Positions 5,301-40,848 of a stretch of DNA of 41,055 nt are shown piece after piece. The translations under genes were made by a program, and so were the position numbers. This DNA comes from Anaerolinea thermophila (GTDB taxonomy: Bacteria > Chloroflexota > Anaerolineae > Anaerolineales > Villigracilaceae). Numbering within the stretch: position 1 is the first letter of the stretch; each line of letters opens with the position of its first letter. The notes beneath the pieces are model-generated. The model searched no databases. It was not told where the DNA came from and saw only the letters and a program-made list of their open reading frames with translations. The stretch is taken from assembly GCA_020722345.1 (NCBI GenBank), contig DYKZ01000006.1, forward strand, positions 1-41,055, given 5' to 3'.

Positions 5301-5570
5301 GAAGAGGATGTAGGAGAGGGCGATCTCGTGGAACTGGAGCGGCCCGTGGCTCATCGGATCGTAGGCGTAACCGTAGCCGGTGTAGAGGCTGTAGGTGGGC
5401 ACCACGTGGTTGATCTCGTCGTGGCTCATGGCGCGCGCCCCCAGGTCGTAGAAGCGCGAGACGAGCGCGGCGACGAGGATCAGCACGACCAGCAGGGTTT
5501 CGTAATTGGCGGGAATCCACTTCTTGAGCGGCGTATCCAGCCGGGAGGGTTTTTCGAGGTTGGCAGTCAT
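2310..5570 (-). CDS. Agl23-like (TIGR03663) GT-C-type membrane protein fused to C-terminal NHL-repeat propeller
   Basis: This 1086-residue protein has two parts. Residues 1 to about 560 form a multi-spanning membrane domain of the GT-C glycosyltransferase type. It has the early acidic loop motif MSHDEINH and a following HGPLQFHE, as in the TIGR03663 family (called flippase-activity-associated Agl23 in archaea) and ArnT/PMT-like enzymes. The last roughly 300 residues hold NHL repeats, seen as recurring YIADSLNHRIQ, YVADTWNFRIQ, FVADTGNKKI and YVTDTWNQRVQ, which form a beta-propeller probably outside the cell. By family analogy it would act on lipid-linked sugars during glycoconjugate assembly, with the propeller binding carbohydrate or protein. 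A TGG-TACAAT extended -10 lies seven bases before the ATG. It stands alone between convergent and accessory DNA. Confidence 0.82.
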   Translation of the reverse strand: MTANLEKPSRLDTPLKKWIPANYETLLVVLILVAALVSRFYDLGARAMSHDEINHVVPTYSLYTGYGYAYDPMSHGPLQFHEIALSYILFGDNDFTTRIPAALYGVATVALGLLLFRRYLGRVGAIAAGIMLLISPYLLYYGRYARNEIFIVLWAMLLIYSALRYLERGERWSLYLFVLANAFHFTDKATSYMFAGGIFIFLFFYFVDHVSRREWSGRNLRAAFLGGLAAGIALLAAALLVYLKMKAAAEADALLQELAEPKPLSTGVLFTVGVLALFGVAGLVAAAVSAVRGFGWAGLRSERALDLTLLIGTLILPLLSAIPIQLLGFVPQDYTLAGNLRILIAVLALGGIGVALGLWWFGKRWLPMAAAFFLPTLLLYTTFFTNPAMLGSGFVGSFAYWLGQHGEGRGGQPLFYYALVQVPMYEFLPALGTLAAALIAAFGKLWRSAPGKPFESAVADEGEEQPAPIAALVVFWALFSLAIFSYAGERMPWLTCHITLPMILATAWAIGWLVETRPWTKFPRRDWRLWTRAIWLGLFGLLAVATARSAYRAAYVNYDYPFEYLVYAHGTPDPKALFEQIEELSYRITGGNDLVVAYDNMVRYPYWWYMRRYPNKIDFDVNPSRDVGRALIIAVGTENYAKLAPVVQANYVEMDGMRMWWQNQDYWSLKWDNIAYERRADLAAEYAERGEELPEMTVFGYLEYAWPHIKPIFTDRAVQSAVWQIWFNRDFTEWGKLRGDPDSYTLTNWGVADRMKIYVRRDLAAQLWPYGAPAQAIEEPVDPYEGIVVTAVPDLVLGLPGEEVGYFQAPRQIALAPDGTLYIADSLNHRIQHIGQDGEILHVWGSFADANTGDAPGGTFYEPWGVAVSPDGEFVYVADTWNFRIQKFTSEGQFLQMWNSYPSFGVETGLYGPRGLAVDRQGRLFVADTGNKKIVIFDPDGNYLGEVGAPGMLLGQFDEPVAVAFDDFGNLYVTDTWNQRVQVFAPDQSGLFFTPLAEWPVYGWYGQSLENKPFIAVGPGGSVFVSDPEMCRLIEFSPVGEPLHVWDGCAGGSFQAPSGLVADGQGGLWVADAANGALAHFIPAAP

Positions 5571-5577
5571 CAGGGAT

Positions 5578-5586
5578 ATTGTACCA
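5578..5586 (-). promoter_or_regulatory. extended -10 promoter element, probably leaderless
   Basis: On the minus strand TGGTACAAT reads from 5586 to 5578. The TACAAT hexamer ends seven bases before the ATG at 5570, the same spacing as at 1391-1404, which predicts a leaderless transcript for the Agl23-NHL gene. Confidence 0.5.
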
Positions 5587-5593
5587 AAAGCAG

Positions 5594-5655
5594 GCGTTAG
5601 TTGTTAGTCGCTAGTCGTTAGTCGTCAGTCGCTAGTTCGTTGGTCGTCAGTCCCT
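5594..5655. repeat. low-complexity tandem GTTAGTC/GTCAGTC repeats
   Basis: The segment is built from degenerate 7-8 base units such as GTTAGTC, GCTAGTC and GTCAGTC in direct tandem. It is non-coding and lies between the Agl23 promoter and the 180-bp repeat. Such simple arrays expand by slippage and have no assigned role here. Confidence 0.6.
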
Positions 5656-5681
5656 CCGGGAGAAGGCAAGCAAATCTTGCG

Positions 5682-5875
5682 AAGTGTTGACTCTCCTGCA
5701 AAAAAGGCTATTGCACCGCGCAGCACGCGAAGACCGCCAGGAAAATGCAAAATCACAACTCATTATTCAAGATAATCTGCGTCGTGGTTCAACATTTTCA
5801 AAGCGTCCTTAAATTTCCTTCGTTGCCTTTGTGTCTGTCGTGTTTAAAAAGGTTTTTGCAGTGGACTCAAGTGTT
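5682..5875 (+). repeat. MITE-like element, copy 1, with target duplication
   Basis: The 180-bp element spans 5689-5868. It begins GACTCTCCTGCAAAAAA and ends TTTTTGCAGTGGACTC, giving imperfect terminal inverted repeats. AAGTGTT flanks it on both sides (5682-5688 and 5869-5875) as a 7-bp target duplication. A second copy at 40664-40842 differs by four substitutions and one single-base gap. Neither encodes a transposase, so both would be moved by an enzyme encoded elsewhere. The right half holds TTCGTTGCCTTTGTGTC-type sequence. This copy sits between the DGR template region and the Agl23 gene. Confidence 0.8.
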
Positions 5876-5881
5876 GAAAAA

Positions 5882-6029
5882 AACGCCTCATTCCAGGGTT
5901 CGTGACCCAGGGAATGGGGCGGTTAAATATTCGCCCGGAGTTTCCTCCGAGCCGGGATATGACCGGCCATTTTTCGCCGCGGCCGCCGCCCGTCAGCGGA
6001 CGACACTACTGGCATGCCGCGAAAAGCGT
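5882..6029 (-). other. non-coding tail downstream of the DGR template repeat, candidate TR-RNA spacer
   Basis: No gene is supported in these 148 bases. On the minus strand the segment directly follows the template repeat. It is GC-rich and can fold into short hairpins, for example CGGAG-TTTC-CTCCG at about 5936-5949. In the Bordetella phage DGR the RNA just 3' of TR is needed to prime cDNA synthesis, so this stretch is the natural place for an equivalent part. That assignment is inference from position only. Confidence 0.3.
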
Positions 6030-6148
6030 GAGAGAGAACCAACCGAAAACCGACATTGTTGTTGTAGTTGTCGGGAATGTTCCTGTTGCGGTAGGCGCAG
6101 CGGGCGTTGTTACGATTGTTGTTCCACGAGCCGCCGCGAACCACGCGC
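6030..6148 (-). other. DGR template repeat (TR)
   Basis: These 119 bases match the VR at 6891-7009 without gaps. Read on the minus strand they would encode [20 protein letters not shown] and then a second Asn-rich part, with runs of AAC/AAT codons, the hallmark of DGR templates. All 11 differences from VR are at template adenines (plus-strand positions 6060, 6065, 6071, 6087, 6107, 6108, 6110, 6116, 6117, 6120, 6123). That is 11 of 27 adenines changed and none of the 92 other bases. During mutagenic retrohoming, TR RNA is copied with errors at A and the cDNA replaces VR. The 5' part overlaps the end of the avd reading frame. Confidence 0.93.
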
Positions 6149-6508
6149 CTCTCTATCAGTCCATCCCGTCTGAAATGCCGATTTCTGCCAGCCGCCGAGC
6201 AAACGCCCGATCTCGACCAGCATCCTGGCGGCATGTTCATACTGCCCAATATCGAGAAGTTCCAAATCCTTGCATAGGCGCAATAACTGGCGCAGTTTTG
6301 CCAACTGGATATCGGCCTCTTCGAGCCTTTCTCTGCGCTTTTCCCCGGCTGAAAGCCCGGCGGCGATGAGCGTTTCCTGCAAGTCCAGCGCCAGGCGGAC
6401 GACGCGCTCGCCAACGCCAAAACGATGGACGCGCGGGAATTTCTGCGCCTGGGGAATCAGCCACAGCAGGCAATCGTACATTTTGGAAAAGATGGGCGAT
6501 TCTTTCAT
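6110..6508 (-). CDS. avd: DGR accessory variability determinant Avd (four-helix bundle)
   Basis: The 132-residue protein starts [18 protein letters not shown] and contains the family-typical KFPRVHRF, the charged [15 protein letters not shown] helix and the conserved C-terminal [20 protein letters not shown] (residues 88-107). Avd proteins form a pentameric four-helix barrel that binds the DGR reverse transcriptase and the TR RNA and is required for adenine-mutagenic cDNA synthesis. The start is fixed by a 4-base ATGA overlap with the RT remnant (6505-6508), which implies translational coupling. Homology ends near residue 110. The last 22 or so codons read into the TR and end at a TAA inside it, so the tail is probably an unstructured extension. 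The gene looks intact. Confidence 0.88.
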
Positions 6509-6741
6509 GCCGCGTCGAAACCTCCCAAGACAGCCGCTTGCAGGCCGTGCGTATCGCCCCACGAAGCGTGCGCCTTCCAGGAACGGACGGACTCCTCGAC
6601 TACTTTCGCCGGGATTTCGCCGTTCACCCACTGCCTGTACAGATGATGAAAGCGGCGCTGGAAGGCAATGCCGCGCCGCCGTTTCAAACGGCGATGATCA
6701 GGATAAATACAGAAACCCAGGAAGGGAATGCCATTCTTCAT
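6505..6741 (-). pseudogene. 3' remnant of the DGR reverse transcriptase gene
   Basis: Seventy-eight codons remain, beginning MKNGIPFLGFCIYP and continuing DHRRLKRRRGIAFQRRFHHL, then the KAHASWGDTHGL segment. This matches the C-terminal thumb of DGR reverse transcriptases, where G-x-P-F-L-G-F follows the catalytic palm. Everything upstream, including the YxDD active site and the DGR-specific motifs, is missing; a stop codon lies in frame five codons before the ATG, and bases 6742-6882 have no RT-like coding in any frame. A full enzyme would be about 350-400 residues. The remnant still overlaps avd by ATGA, showing the original RT-avd order. A short RT-tail peptide might still be made, but it cannot polymerise. 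Confidence 0.82.
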
Positions 6742-6806
6742 CTGTATGAAGCATCAGGCAGTAAAACACCGCTCCAGGCAAAGGGTCGCGGAATATTTTT
6801 TACGCG

Positions 6807-6835
6807 CTGGGGAAGGGGCGTAGCCCCTTCCCCAG
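6807..6835. repeat. strong hairpin/cruciform downstream of VR
   Basis: CTGGGGAAGGGGC (6807-6819) and its exact complement (6823-6835) form a 13-bp stem with a 3-base loop. It begins 47 bases past the stop codon of the variable gene on the minus strand. No T-run follows on either strand, so it is a poor intrinsic terminator. DGR target sites often carry a GC-rich hairpin downstream of VR that helps target recognition, which is one reading. A REP-like dispersed palindrome is the other. Confidence 0.6.
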
Positions 6836-6882
6836 ACCCCAACCCCCAGAAATCAGAATCCAGAAATCCAGAAACCAAAACA

Positions 6883-9882
6883 TCAAATGGGAGAGAGAAC
6901 CAACCGAAAACCGACATTGTAGTTGAAGTTGACGGGAATGTTCCTGTAGCGGTAGGCGCAGCGGGCGAGGCTACGAACGTCGTCCCACGAGCCGCCGCGA
7001 ACCACGCGCAGGCCGCTGCCAGCCGGACCGCGTGGATCCACGGCTTGCGTTTTCAGCCACTGCGAATAGGCCTCCTGGCTGTATTCATCCAGACACCATT
7101 CCCAAACGTTGCCGGCCATATCCAGCGCGCCGCAGGGGCTGGCGCCGTGCGGGTAGATGCCCACAGGCGATGTACTCCCAATCTTATCCTCGGGTTCGTC
7201 ATTGTTGCACTTCGACGCGTCCCAGGCATTTCCCCACGGCCAGAGAAAACCCTTTTCGCCGCGGGCGGCCTTTTCCCACTCGGCTTCGCTGGGCAGGCGG
7301 AAAGCCTGGTTTTCCGGCAACTGCCCGGCCCGGCGCAGAGAATCCGTCAGCCAGTTGGCGTAGGCCTCGGCTTCGAACCACGAGACGCCCACCACCGGCA
7401 GGTTGGCGGCGTTCCATTTTGGGTCCTCCCACCAGAAAGGCTGGCCGCGTTTTTCTTTGGGGCGTCTGGCAAGCCACTCCCGCAATCTTTCTTGGTAATC
7501 TTCTGTAAACATCGAGAAATCTTGGGTGTCCCACAAACCGACTCGCCACTGCCAGCCGGTCTCGCTCCACCAGGGCGGCGGCTCGCCATCCAGTTCGCCG
7601 TAGCCTTTGGCCTCCACGAAGGCGCGGTACTCGGCGTTGGTGACGGGGTATTTGCCAACCTGGTAATCATAAGAAATTTCGACGATCAAATCCTGCCCGC
7701 CGGTTTTCTCGTTCTCCCAGATGTAACGTTCTTCGACGCCCTGCGCCTTGAGTACTTCCTCATCGGCGGCGTTGGTGCCCATGCGAAAGGGGCCGGCGGG
7801 AATAACTTGCGAGAGGGCAGGCATCCCGCCGGGGTGCAGGCGGGGGTCGAATAATCGTTTGGGATTGGCGGGGTCTTTGAGGGAACTCAGCGCCAGCCCC
7901 AATTCGCGACGCAGGCGCAGGGGCAGGGTCGGCGGGTTGCGTTCGATGACCGTCAACATTTTTCCCGGCAGGTTTTCACGCAAGTCGCGATAGGCGGATT
8001 GGGCGGGCAGGTCGGCTAAACTCAATCCTGCCAGAGCAACGGCCCGGTCACATTCATCCTCAGATTGGCCCAATTCGGCCAGTTTTGCCACAAAGGCCTT
8101 GGCTTGATTCTCGCCGCGCACAGCCAGATATCCGGCTGCCAATCGCACCGGCTCCACCCACCAATCATCCGTCAAATGCTCGCGCACGAAGCCCGCCTGT
8201 TTTTCCAGGTCGAATGGCGCATAATTGGTCACCAGATGCCAGCCAGCCAGGAACTCCTGAAAGGTGCGATGTGTGCGAAAGGCAAAAGCCCGGTCTTGTT
8301 CTTCCAGCAAGCCGCCACGCATCGCAACGGCATACAAGAAATTGCGAATTTCTTCTCGTCGGCTTACGGGGTCGGAAGCCGTGGTCGAAAACCCCCCCAG
8401 TAACAGGTCAATCAGGTCGTCTTCCGCTTTTCCTTCCTCGCCCACGCCAGCCAAGTGTAACTGGAAAGCAATCAAAGCGATCCGACTGCGCAATTCGGCG
8501 GCATCTGTCTCACCCAGGCCTGTTTCATGCGGATCTTTGCGATGCAGGTCACGCAACAAAGTCTCAACGGCGCTATCGTAGACTTCAGAGCGCTGGTGAG
8601 GTAGTTCATGTCCGGGGCGGTGAATGATGGTGAAAATGGTTGTGAGGAGTGGCGTTTCGGCAAGTCGGCGTACGCGCTCATCGCTGGCATCGAGGCGAGC
8701 GATGAGATCGGAACTGCGCCGCTCAGCATTGGCAGGATCATAACAACGATACAGGTTGCGGATCAATTGGTCACGCTTCGGATCATCCAGCGGCAGGACA
8801 CGGCCGTGCCGGGCAGAGGCGGTCTGCGCTTCGGCAGAGGCAGAGGGTCGGGCTGTAATGATGGCGCGCGTGCGCGGGTGGGCGTGAATGGTTAACATCT
8901 CATGCACGGCGCGGCGTACAGCCAGGCGGCATCCGGGAGCGACTTCATCCACGCCGTCGAAGAGAAACAGACAACCATTTTTTATCTTGCTGGCAAAGAA
9001 TTCATCAGGAACTTGAGGAACAGCACTTTTGCTCTTCTGCGGCTCATAATGTTTCTTGTACCAATCAGCGACGAAGTCAAGCATGGCAGCCGCAGAGCGT
9101 TCGCGGTTCTCCCGCGCGCAAAAACGGTCGAAAGCGCCAAGCGGGATAAATATGGGGAACAGAGGGCCTCCCATGGCCTTGAGCAGCGCCTTTTGACCGG
9201 GGATCTCCTGTTTGAGCAATGCCTGAGCACAATTCAGCCCAATCCACTGAAGAAGGGTGCTTTTCCCCGAACCCGGGATACCCTCGATGGTCAGCACATG
9301 CGAGCGCCGCAAGGCCTCATCCAACCCGATGGACTGCTCTCTTTCGCCCAATTCGGGAACAACCATTTCAGGCAAATGCCTGCCCCGGCGAGAATCCTTG
9401 CCGCGGGCAGCGCGCTCTTGCTCGGTCAACTCAAAATTGACCTCAATGGGCAGATAAACATCCTTGAGGGTGGCTGGTTTTCTTTCCTCATACAAGCCCA
9501 GTGAAAGGGCGCTAAATTTGGGATCCTGGTATTGGGCAACAAACCATTGCAGGTACTGGCGGATGGGGTTGGGATAGCGATGAAAACGTGAAGCCAGCCA
9601 GCCTCCAAGTTGCTTGCCGCCTTCATTGCTCGCGCTTTTGACAATTGCCCATATCAATCCAATCAAGGCTGCCAACACTAAAAATAAGATTAACCACAAA
9701 CGATACGTTGCCCACGCAGCATTCAGCCAAATCCAAAAGTCCTGGAAATCACCAGGCGGCACAGGCGGCACAGGCGTTGCCGTCGGCGGCGGGGCATCCG
9801 TCTGCGCCGAGGCAGGCGCGGCAAATGCCAGGAAAATCAAAGCGAGCAGGAAAGCGAGCAAAAGACCCGATCGAGAAGCCAT
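6883..9882 (-). CDS. membrane-anchored NACHT ATPase with C-terminal FGE-like variable domain (DGR target protein)
   Basis: The protein has 999 residues. Residues 1-26 form a signal peptide ending APASA. A short Pro/Thr-rich stretch follows, then a membrane segment at about 61-81 (RLWLILFLVLAALIGLIW). A NACHT-type STAND NTPase comes next: Walker A GIPGSGKST at 201-209 and Walker B CLFLFDGVDEV at 304-314, with helical parts to about 640 including FRTHRTFQEFLAGW. From about 685 to 999 is an FGE-sulfatase/SUMF1-like domain (PAGPFRMGTN, YPVTNAEYRAF, RLPSEAEWEKAARG, GNVWEWCLDEYS) of C-type-lectin fold. The variable repeat encodes residues 958-998. Topology predicts the NACHT and variable domains in the cytoplasm. 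By analogy with other STAND proteins, binding by the variable domain would trigger the ATPase. A GAGGAGGAG ribosome-binding site precedes the ATG. It is the first gene of the DGR. Confidence 0.9.
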   Translation of the reverse strand: MASRSGLLLAFLLALIFLAFAAPASAQTDAPPPTATPVPPVPPGDFQDFWIWLNAAWATYRLWLILFLVLAALIGLIWAIVKSASNEGGKQLGGWLASRFHRYPNPIRQYLQWFVAQYQDPKFSALSLGLYEERKPATLKDVYLPIEVNFELTEQERAARGKDSRRGRHLPEMVVPELGEREQSIGLDEALRRSHVLTIEGIPGSGKSTLLQWIGLNCAQALLKQEIPGQKALLKAMGGPLFPIFIPLGAFDRFCARENRERSAAAMLDFVADWYKKHYEPQKSKSAVPQVPDEFFASKIKNGCLFLFDGVDEVAPGCRLAVRRAVHEMLTIHAHPRTRAIITARPSASAEAQTASARHGRVLPLDDPKRDQLIRNLYRCYDPANAERRSSDLIARLDASDERVRRLAETPLLTTIFTIIHRPGHELPHQRSEVYDSAVETLLRDLHRKDPHETGLGETDAAELRSRIALIAFQLHLAGVGEEGKAEDDLIDLLLGGFSTTASDPVSRREEIRNFLYAVAMRGGLLEEQDRAFAFRTHRTFQEFLAGWHLVTNYAPFDLEKQAGFVREHLTDDWWVEPVRLAAGYLAVRGENQAKAFVAKLAELGQSEDECDRAVALAGLSLADLPAQSAYRDLRENLPGKMLTVIERNPPTLPLRLRRELGLALSSLKDPANPKRLFDPRLHPGGMPALSQVIPAGPFRMGTNAADEEVLKAQGVEERYIWENEKTGGQDLIVEISYDYQVGKYPVTNAEYRAFVEAKGYGELDGEPPPWWSETGWQWRVGLWDTQDFSMFTEDYQERLREWLARRPKEKRGQPFWWEDPKWNAANLPVVGVSWFEAEAYANWLTDSLRRAGQLPENQAFRLPSEAEWEKAARGEKGFLWPWGNAWDASKCNNDEPEDKIGSTSPVGIYPHGASPCGALDMAGNVWEWCLDEYSQEAYSQWLKTQAVDPRGPAGSGLRVVRGGSWDDVRSLARCAYRYRNIPVNFNYNVGFRLVLSPI
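6891..7009 (-). other. DGR variable repeat (VR)
   Basis: This is the diversified partner of the TR at 6030-6148, covering residues 958-998 of the NACHT-FGE protein. Relative to TR, nine residues change: N-N-N to D-D-V and N-N to S-L after GGSW, N to Y before RNIP, and D, Y and N to V, F and Y in the PxNxNxN stretch. The invariant flanks, RVVRGGSW on one side and NVGFRLVLS on the other, keep the fold. The 3' identity block (GAGAGAGAACC on the plus strand) before divergence would serve as the initiation-of-mutagenic-homology region. The stop codon lies eight bases beyond. Confidence 0.93.
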
Positions 9883-39611: not shown

Positions 39612-40598
39612 TTATTCCACTTCCACGATCCGCGCCGGACCCCCAGCCTGCGCGGCGCGCACTTCCCGGACCCCCGGTATGCTCCCGATTAACTTGACAA
39701 CTGCTTCCCCCGCAGCCTGCTCGCAGATTACATGGACGTTCGACCCGGCGTCCACGGTGGCGCAGGCGGCCAGTCCCTTCGAGCGCGCCTGGCGCACGGC
39801 GGCCAGCACTTCCAGCGTGGCAGGCTGCCAGTAGAAAAGCGGCGGAGCGGAGGTCATCATCACGGCGTGCATGAGGGTTGAGTCGAGTTCGACGATTTCG
39901 GCAAAGGCGGCAAAGTCGCGCGTCAGGATGGCTTGCCGGCAAATGCCCAGCCTGCGGGGCGCGTCTGCCACCCGCGCTGCTTGCAGGGGGCTGGTGCCTG
40001 CCAGGGCGTGGCCCTCGGTGGAACCGGTCGGCTTGTGGGCGCCGGAGAGGATGGCGACCACGTCCACCAGCGGCCAGTGTTCGGGCGGGGCGATGGAGAC
40101 GGCGAACGAGTCTTCGTCGCCGGAGCCGGGCAGCCACTCGACGAATCCGCCCGGGACGGAGCGGCACGCCGACCCGGAGCCACGCCGCGCCAGCCGGGAG
40201 AGTTCTGCTTCCGTCAAGTCCAGCCCTGCCGCTTTCGTTGCCGCCAATGCCAGCGCCGCGAAGGCCGAGGCCGAGGAAGCGATCCCCGCGCCGGAGGGAA
40301 AGTTGTTGCGGCTGTCCACCGCGGCGCGCAGGTCGAAGCCCGCCATCCGGCGGACCAGATCGAGGAACGCCGAGACGCGTTCCAGCCCCTTGCCGGTCAT
40401 GGCTGAATTGTTGAGGCTCAGGCTGTCGGCGCGCAGGGCAGGGTCAAAGCGGACAGTGGTGCGCGTCTCCAGCCCGGCCAGGTCCATCGAGATGGAACCA
40501 TTGGCTGGGAGGCGCAGGGCGTCGTCGCGGTTGCCCCAGTACTTGATGAAGGCGATGTTGGGGTGAGCGAGGGCTGTTGCTCGGGAAATATCAGACAT
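39612..40598 (-). CDS. mvaD: mevalonate-pathway decarboxylase (diphosphomevalonate or phosphomevalonate decarboxylase)
   Basis: The 328-residue GHMP-fold enzyme starts ATALAHPNIAFIKYWGNRD, as in MvaD, and has the phosphate loop PSGAGIASSASAFAALAL and GSGSACRSVPGGFVEW. The C-terminal HAVMMTSAPPLFYW and DAGSNVHVI complete the family pattern. It decarboxylates an (di)phosphorylated mevalonate on the way to isopentenyl units. In Roseiflexus, another chloroflexote, a related enzyme acts on the monophosphate, so the substrate needs testing. It heads the minus-strand run through rseP; MITE copy 2 lies 60 bases upstream. Confidence 0.9.
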   Translation of the reverse strand: MSDISRATALAHPNIAFIKYWGNRDDALRLPANGSISMDLAGLETRTTVRFDPALRADSLSLNNSAMTGKGLERVSAFLDLVRRMAGFDLRAAVDSRNNFPSGAGIASSASAFAALALAATKAAGLDLTEAELSRLARRGSGSACRSVPGGFVEWLPGSGDEDSFAVSIAPPEHWPLVDVVAILSGAHKPTGSTEGHALAGTSPLQAARVADAPRRLGICRQAILTRDFAAFAEIVELDSTLMHAVMMTSAPPLFYWQPATLEVLAAVRQARSKGLAACATVDAGSNVHVICEQAAGEAVVKLIGSIPGVREVRAAQAGGPARIVEVE

Positions 40599-40657: not shown

Positions 40658-40848
40658 AATTGTGACTCTACTGCAAAAAGGCTATTGCACCGCGCAGCAC
40701 GCGAAGACCGCCAGGAAAATGCAAAATCACAACTCATTATTCAAGATAATCTGCGTCGTGGTTCAACATTTTCAAAGTGTCCTTAAATTTCCTTCGTTGC
40801 CTTTGTGTCCTTCGTGTTTAAAAAGGTTTTTGCAGTGGACTCAATTGT
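40658..40848 (+). repeat. MITE-like element, copy 2, with target duplication
   Basis: The 179-bp element (40664-40842) begins GACTCTACTGCAAAAAGG and ends TTTTTGCAGTGGACTC; the ends match as inverted repeats in 13 of the first 15 bases. AATTGT flanks it on both sides (40658-40663 and 40843-40848). It is about 97% identical to copy 1 at 5689-5868, in the same orientation. It lies upstream of mvaD and may displace or supply its promoter. Confidence 0.8.

Follow-up and report, generated by a model that had tools for sequence, protein, structure and literature searches.

Bacterial MITEs, of which MITEAba12 is an example (PMC6382973; reviewed in PMC10969869), are short, non-coding elements bounded by terminal inverted repeats (TIRs) and flanked by target-site duplications (TSDs), and they occur as numerous near-identical copies whose ends match those of an autonomous insertion sequence (IS). 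The family described here is alike in each of these respects and differs in its interior, which appears to be a dispersed module in its own right and not what is left of an IS after deletion. Two further systems bear on the locus: the IS1182-family member IS1272, 1.93 kb long with 16-bp TIRs, is reported to take the place of inverted repeats and to leave no TSDs (PMC5678879), and in Thiohalocapsa PB-PSB1 MITE-like repeats replace parts of a DGR (PMC10907252). For the Anaerolineae host group and the TIR concerned, no description was found in the literature searched.

We analysed a 41,055-nucleotide stretch of DNA (hereafter the window), in which a sequence-only reading had placed two near-identical elements of about 180 bp with imperfect TIRs and flanking duplications, one beside a DGR and the other on the 5' side of mvaD. 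All of this holds, with coordinates exact to the base and an identity of 97% between the copies. The TIRs of the window copies are 16-nt long and imperfect, the left one reading GACTCTCCTGCAAAAAA or GACTCTACTGCAAAAA and the right one GAGTCCACTGCAAAAA (reverse complement), and the two insertions are built as follows:

5689..5868, plus strand: MITE copy 1, 180 bp
5682..5688, no strand: left target-site duplication of copy 1, AAGTGTT, 7 bp, seen in the sequence
5869..5875, no strand: right target-site duplication of copy 1, AAGTGTT
5689..5705, plus strand: left terminal inverted repeat of copy 1, GACTCTCCTGCAAAAAA
5853..5868, minus strand: right terminal inverted repeat of copy 1, TTTTTGCAGTGGACTC
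40664..40842, plus strand: MITE copy 2, 179 bp
40658..40663, no strand: left target-site duplication of copy 2, AATTGT, 6 bp
40843..40848, no strand: right target-site duplication of copy 2, AATTGT
40664..40679, plus strand: left terminal inverted repeat of copy 2, GACTCTACTGCAAAAA
40827..40842, minus strand: right terminal inverted repeat of copy 2, TTTTTGCAGTGGACTC

Copy 1 is separated by 55 bp from an FGE-type reading frame that contains the DGR template repeat, and copy 2 lies 66 bp upstream of the start codon of mvaD (ORF 39612-40598, minus strand), whose expression it could influence by position alone. The DGR adjoining copy 1 (window 5923-9882, minus strand) is genuine. Between its two 119-nt repeats there are 11 mismatches, and as every one of these is an adenine in the 6030-6148 copy, that copy is the template:

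6030-6148, minus strand: DGR template repeat, with all 11 mismatches at adenines of this copy
6110-6631, minus strand: bAvd gene, between the template and variable repeats
6891-7009, minus strand: DGR variable repeat, at the end of a 999-aa NACHT-FGE protein

The interval from the template to the next gene (5570-6030), in which copy 1 sits, contains no reverse-transcriptase ORF; since the TSD of copy 1 is intact, its insertion did not itself delete a gene. The arrangement is thus like that in Thiohalocapsa PB-PSB1 in that a MITE-like repeat adjoins a DGR that lacks a reverse transcriptase in the usual place, and unlike it in host and TIR, and in that a single copy with a clean TSD has here removed nothing visible.

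The genome that carries the window is assembled as 3.07 Mb in 398 contigs, and family size was estimated from searches and retrieved stretches. BLAST returned at least 42 significant matches, at least 40 of them full-length (~179 bp), a count of full copies that is a lower bound, with 40 of 141 candidate places scored. The TIR pattern occurs at 179 sites against 3 for a reversed-pattern control, which at two TIRs per element would suggest roughly 90 insertions; numerous sites fall within ~50 bp of contig ends, so that the family evidently breaks the assembly. The 179-bp consensus of 40 aligned copies starts with GACTCTACTGCAAAAAGGC and ends with AAAAAGGTTTTTGCAGTGGACTC, and its right end, read inwards on its own strand, is GAGTCCACTGCAAAAA, in agreement with the left end at 14 of 16 positions. 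Element length ranges from 178 to 180 bp, too short to hold any transposase gene. Individual copies depart from the consensus by 1-5.5% (mean 3.0%; mean pairwise divergence 4.8%), little enough to mark the family as young. A copy count and consensus, proposed earlier as a check, have therefore yielded dozens of copies and a clear consensus. Could these copies be assembly or binning artefacts of a single repeat? The fragmentation into 398 contigs, with numerous contig ends inside the element, might invite that reading, but about 40 complete copies stand in differing flanks, most with a TSD of their own, and both window copies lie inside one 41-kb contig; we attach practically no probability to it. 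A second family, considered because right-end fragments outnumber left-end ones at contig starts, was also rejected, as the imbalance is at least partly explained otherwise: four contigs (L013, L014, L029 and L039) span the element completely and terminate at its right end.

Where both flanks are visible, 31 of 36 copies carry a perfect TSD, of 6 bp in 23 and 7 bp in 8, and the remaining 5 lack one. The duplications take the form A(A/T)NN(A/T)T, with an initial A in 22 and a final T in 21 of the 23 six-base cases. One copy (L008) can be compared in silico with a related, unoccupied repeat of the same genome (L015): after removal of the element and one TSD the two are 94% identical over 100 bp with an unbroken junction, a pair that reads as a near-empty site. 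The repeat in question is palindromic (CCACAGATTTCACGGATTAGCACAGATT...) and dispersed in this genome (L015 around 2595-2694 and the flanks of L008, L030 and L035), and the MITE has inserted into it at least three times. At a contig end (L110, G000:C91:26500-27889), right halves of the MITE are arrayed in tandem with a 112-bp period, consistent with MITE-in-MITE events in which the element repeatedly entered the same internal target. Elsewhere (L070, G000:C287:20400-21400) a family copy is itself split by a different MITE-like element with ends GTAACTATTCAGG...CTGAATAGTTAC, which we take to resemble those of the IS66 family, and with an 8-bp duplication, GAATAATG. Insertions prefer non-coding DNA, and reading frames at insertion sites have a median of 149 aa compared with 269 aa at random nearby positions, as expected if selection removes insertions into genes.

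These features also bear on the idea that the elements are structured RNA genes or REP-like regulatory palindromes spread by duplication and not by transposition. The TIRs and interior are partly self-complementary, and the interior module is also found alone in intergenic DNA of relatives, both of which fit that idea; MITEs, too, can form hairpins. The TSDs and nested insertions, however, contradict spread by duplication, and the predicted RNA folding is not significant (z only -1.6); no Rfam match falls at the copies. We consider an RNA or REP-like origin highly improbable. Copies without TSDs, or a conserved RNA structure without TIRs, had been named in advance as signs against transposition, and neither is what we find: TSDs are usual, and the fold is unremarkable. 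The window elements are a bona fide, recently active MITE family, and the earlier proposal of recent transposition is now backed by at least 40 copies, their TSDs and a divergence of about 3%.

The family is not confined to one genome. BLAST with the consensus detected matches, mostly partial, in 20 of the 41 genomes searched (own included), and a full-length relative of 75% identity in another genus (G016). Within the same genus, different MITE subfamilies share the TIR and have 6-bp TSDs such as ATTTAT and AATAAT, and other genomes and genera contain diverged MITEs that combine this TIR with 6-bp TSDs. Across the order, the exact TIR was recovered in 62 of 301 genomes, with a control near zero. 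Phage and plasmid collections yielded no match, and viral contigs with the TIR were discarded as carrying single matches only, with no paired element with good ends. Lone TIRs in one genome (G022) were likewise set aside, the long reading frames beside them being ordinary genes; adjoining a lone TIR of that genome is a 4-kb stretch (L080, G022:C22:47300-51300) with no ORF of 150 aa or more.

The order-wide TIR survey located a candidate autonomous partner. Among the TIR pairs listed, one element (L227, in G054) is 1807 bp long, with perfect 16-nt TIRs, the TSD AATAAT and a single ORF for a 572-aa transposase. A protein search added a second complete element (L249, in G158) of 1810 bp with the TSD ATCTGT, one of 1783 bp in G186 whose flanks, AACAAA and AACAAT, differ by one mismatch, and contig-end copies bearing the same TIR in several genomes. 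The L227 transposase matches the IS1182 model NF033551 over most of its length (E 3.9e-31), with a score of 108.5 bits that is below the curated cut-off of 270, and exceeds the cut-off of PF13751 (DDE_Tnp_1_6; 29.2 bits against 25.1). Its sequence has no match among solved structures. In an alignment with relatives, D157 is conserved in 22 of 22 sequences, and D350 and E484 in 21 of 22, a pattern consistent with a DDE triad to which catalytic roles may be assigned from the alignment. The partner therefore resembles the IS1182 family in its model match and DDE_Tnp_1_6 domain, and IS1272 in its size (~1.8 kb) and 16-bp TIRs, and it differs from IS1272 in its regular 6-bp TSDs; given the reported lack of TSDs in IS1272, the behaviour of the partner group is not shared by the IS1182 family as a whole.

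Chloroflexota account for most of the 66 related loci revealed by a scan of GTDB genome contigs, and the more distant loci belong to Bacteroidetes, Cloacimonadota and archaeal MAGs. Several of the 66, located without use of the TIR, terminate in sequences such as GACTCCACTGCAAAAA or GAGTCCACTCTAAAAA, and the same protein-found loci (for example L293, L294, L308, L313, L314 and L317) are flanked by perfect 6-bp TSDs, mostly A....T; in all, perfect 6-bp TSDs flank at least nine IS elements (L227/L291, L293, L294, L298, L299, L308, L313, L314 and L317). This independent agreement in ends and TSDs ties the MITE to the IS1182-like group. IS and MITE have only their ~16-18-nt termini in common, so the MITE need not descend from that IS. 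In the MITE's own assembly, protein, alignment and IS1182-model searches returned no such transposase, and the partner is thus known only from relatives; perhaps this genome has lost it, or perhaps unassembled repeats conceal it. Within the genus, other IS1182-type transposases are present, and a fragment in G006 (L277) with a TIR-like end beside it is the sole trace seen of the partner subgroup. The sequence-only reading had asked for full insertion sequences with matching termini in the same genome; these exist as IS1182-like elements with the same type of TSD, in relatives and not in the own assembly.

From these comparisons we consider it very likely that the ~180-base MITEs have been moved in trans by an IS1182-like transposase, at A/T-rich targets and through a 6-bp, sometimes 7-bp, cut. 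The MITEs have no gene and bear only the ends that the transposase recognises, GAsTCyACTGCAAAAA; these TIRs would be bound in trans by a DDE transposase of the IS1182-like group with the same ends, which would excise or copy the element and insert it at an A/T-rich target by a staggered cut of 6 bp (sometimes 7 bp), and repair of the gaps would give the A(A/T)NN(A/T)T duplications. Mobilisation in trans is on this evidence probable, and such a transposase, now absent from the assembly, would formerly have been present in the host lineage.

That absence, in a family of young copies, is what speaks for mobilisation by another transposase resident in this genome, one able to accept the same ends, and the genome does possess other transposases, such as a DDE plus AAA element (L124). 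Yet the combination of exact TIRs with 6-bp A....T TSDs was found only with the IS1182-like group, and in several independent genomes; L124 has no such TIR within its contig, and a PF01609 transposase is absent from the own genome. We therefore judge a different mobiliser improbable and retain the IS1182-like group as the favoured source. L124 itself (G000:C141), in which adjacent genes for a ~203-aa protein, a DDE transposase and an AAA ATPase fill a 3.3-kb contig, is possibly a multi-gene transposon of this genome without the MITE TIR. Other candidates were tried and rejected: PF01609 (IS4/IS5-type) transposases, of which the own genome has none and those of relatives lack the TIR; matches to the ISNCY model NF033594, also lacking the TIR; IS982, considered for the variable duplications, whose ends begin with AC (PMC7335449); and odd TIR sites of the own genome, which are other small elements or contig ends.

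The MITE interior resembles a dispersed motif, ACCACRAAGGNCACRAAGG, after which its inverted partner comes at 16 of 30 loci. The module is inverted, with the repeat ACRAAGGNC at a 9-bp period, and occurs in intergenic DNA of many Anaerolineae genomes (L357-L386, L042, L044, L046, L062 and L067). Of 15 genomes, 11 contain a strict version of the module pattern, among them genomes that yielded no exact TIR, and the control gave zero matches. A related core lies inside a MITE (L062, in G012) with unrelated ends and a 9-bp duplication, AAAAATTAG, so that at least two end types frame the module, IS1182-like with a 6-bp TSD and GGYTCTYCCGT with a 9-bp TSD. A literature text search for four printed versions of the motif found none. 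We hold with moderate confidence that the MITE interior is an independent module; alternatively, bare module copies are old MITEs whose ends have been lost. A further step, offered tentatively and with somewhat less than even conviction, is that a dispersed ACRAAGGNC array existing independently is framed by at least two unrelated types of transposon end, IS ends having captured, perhaps repeatedly, a host repeat that aids amplification; such aid would come, for example, from a binding site for a host protein. This shared interior is the only unusual point of the family, and the sole part that might surprise a specialist.

Overall, the family is a clear and well-supported case of a known kind of element, now with a probable mobiliser. 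It documents a recently active MITE family whose TIR can be traced across an order of uncultured Chloroflexota and which accounts for many contig breaks in a draft genome, and it provides a credible autonomous partner in an IS1182-like group that makes regular 6-bp duplications. If the module is truly independent, the family would constitute a natural experiment on the origin of MITE interiors.
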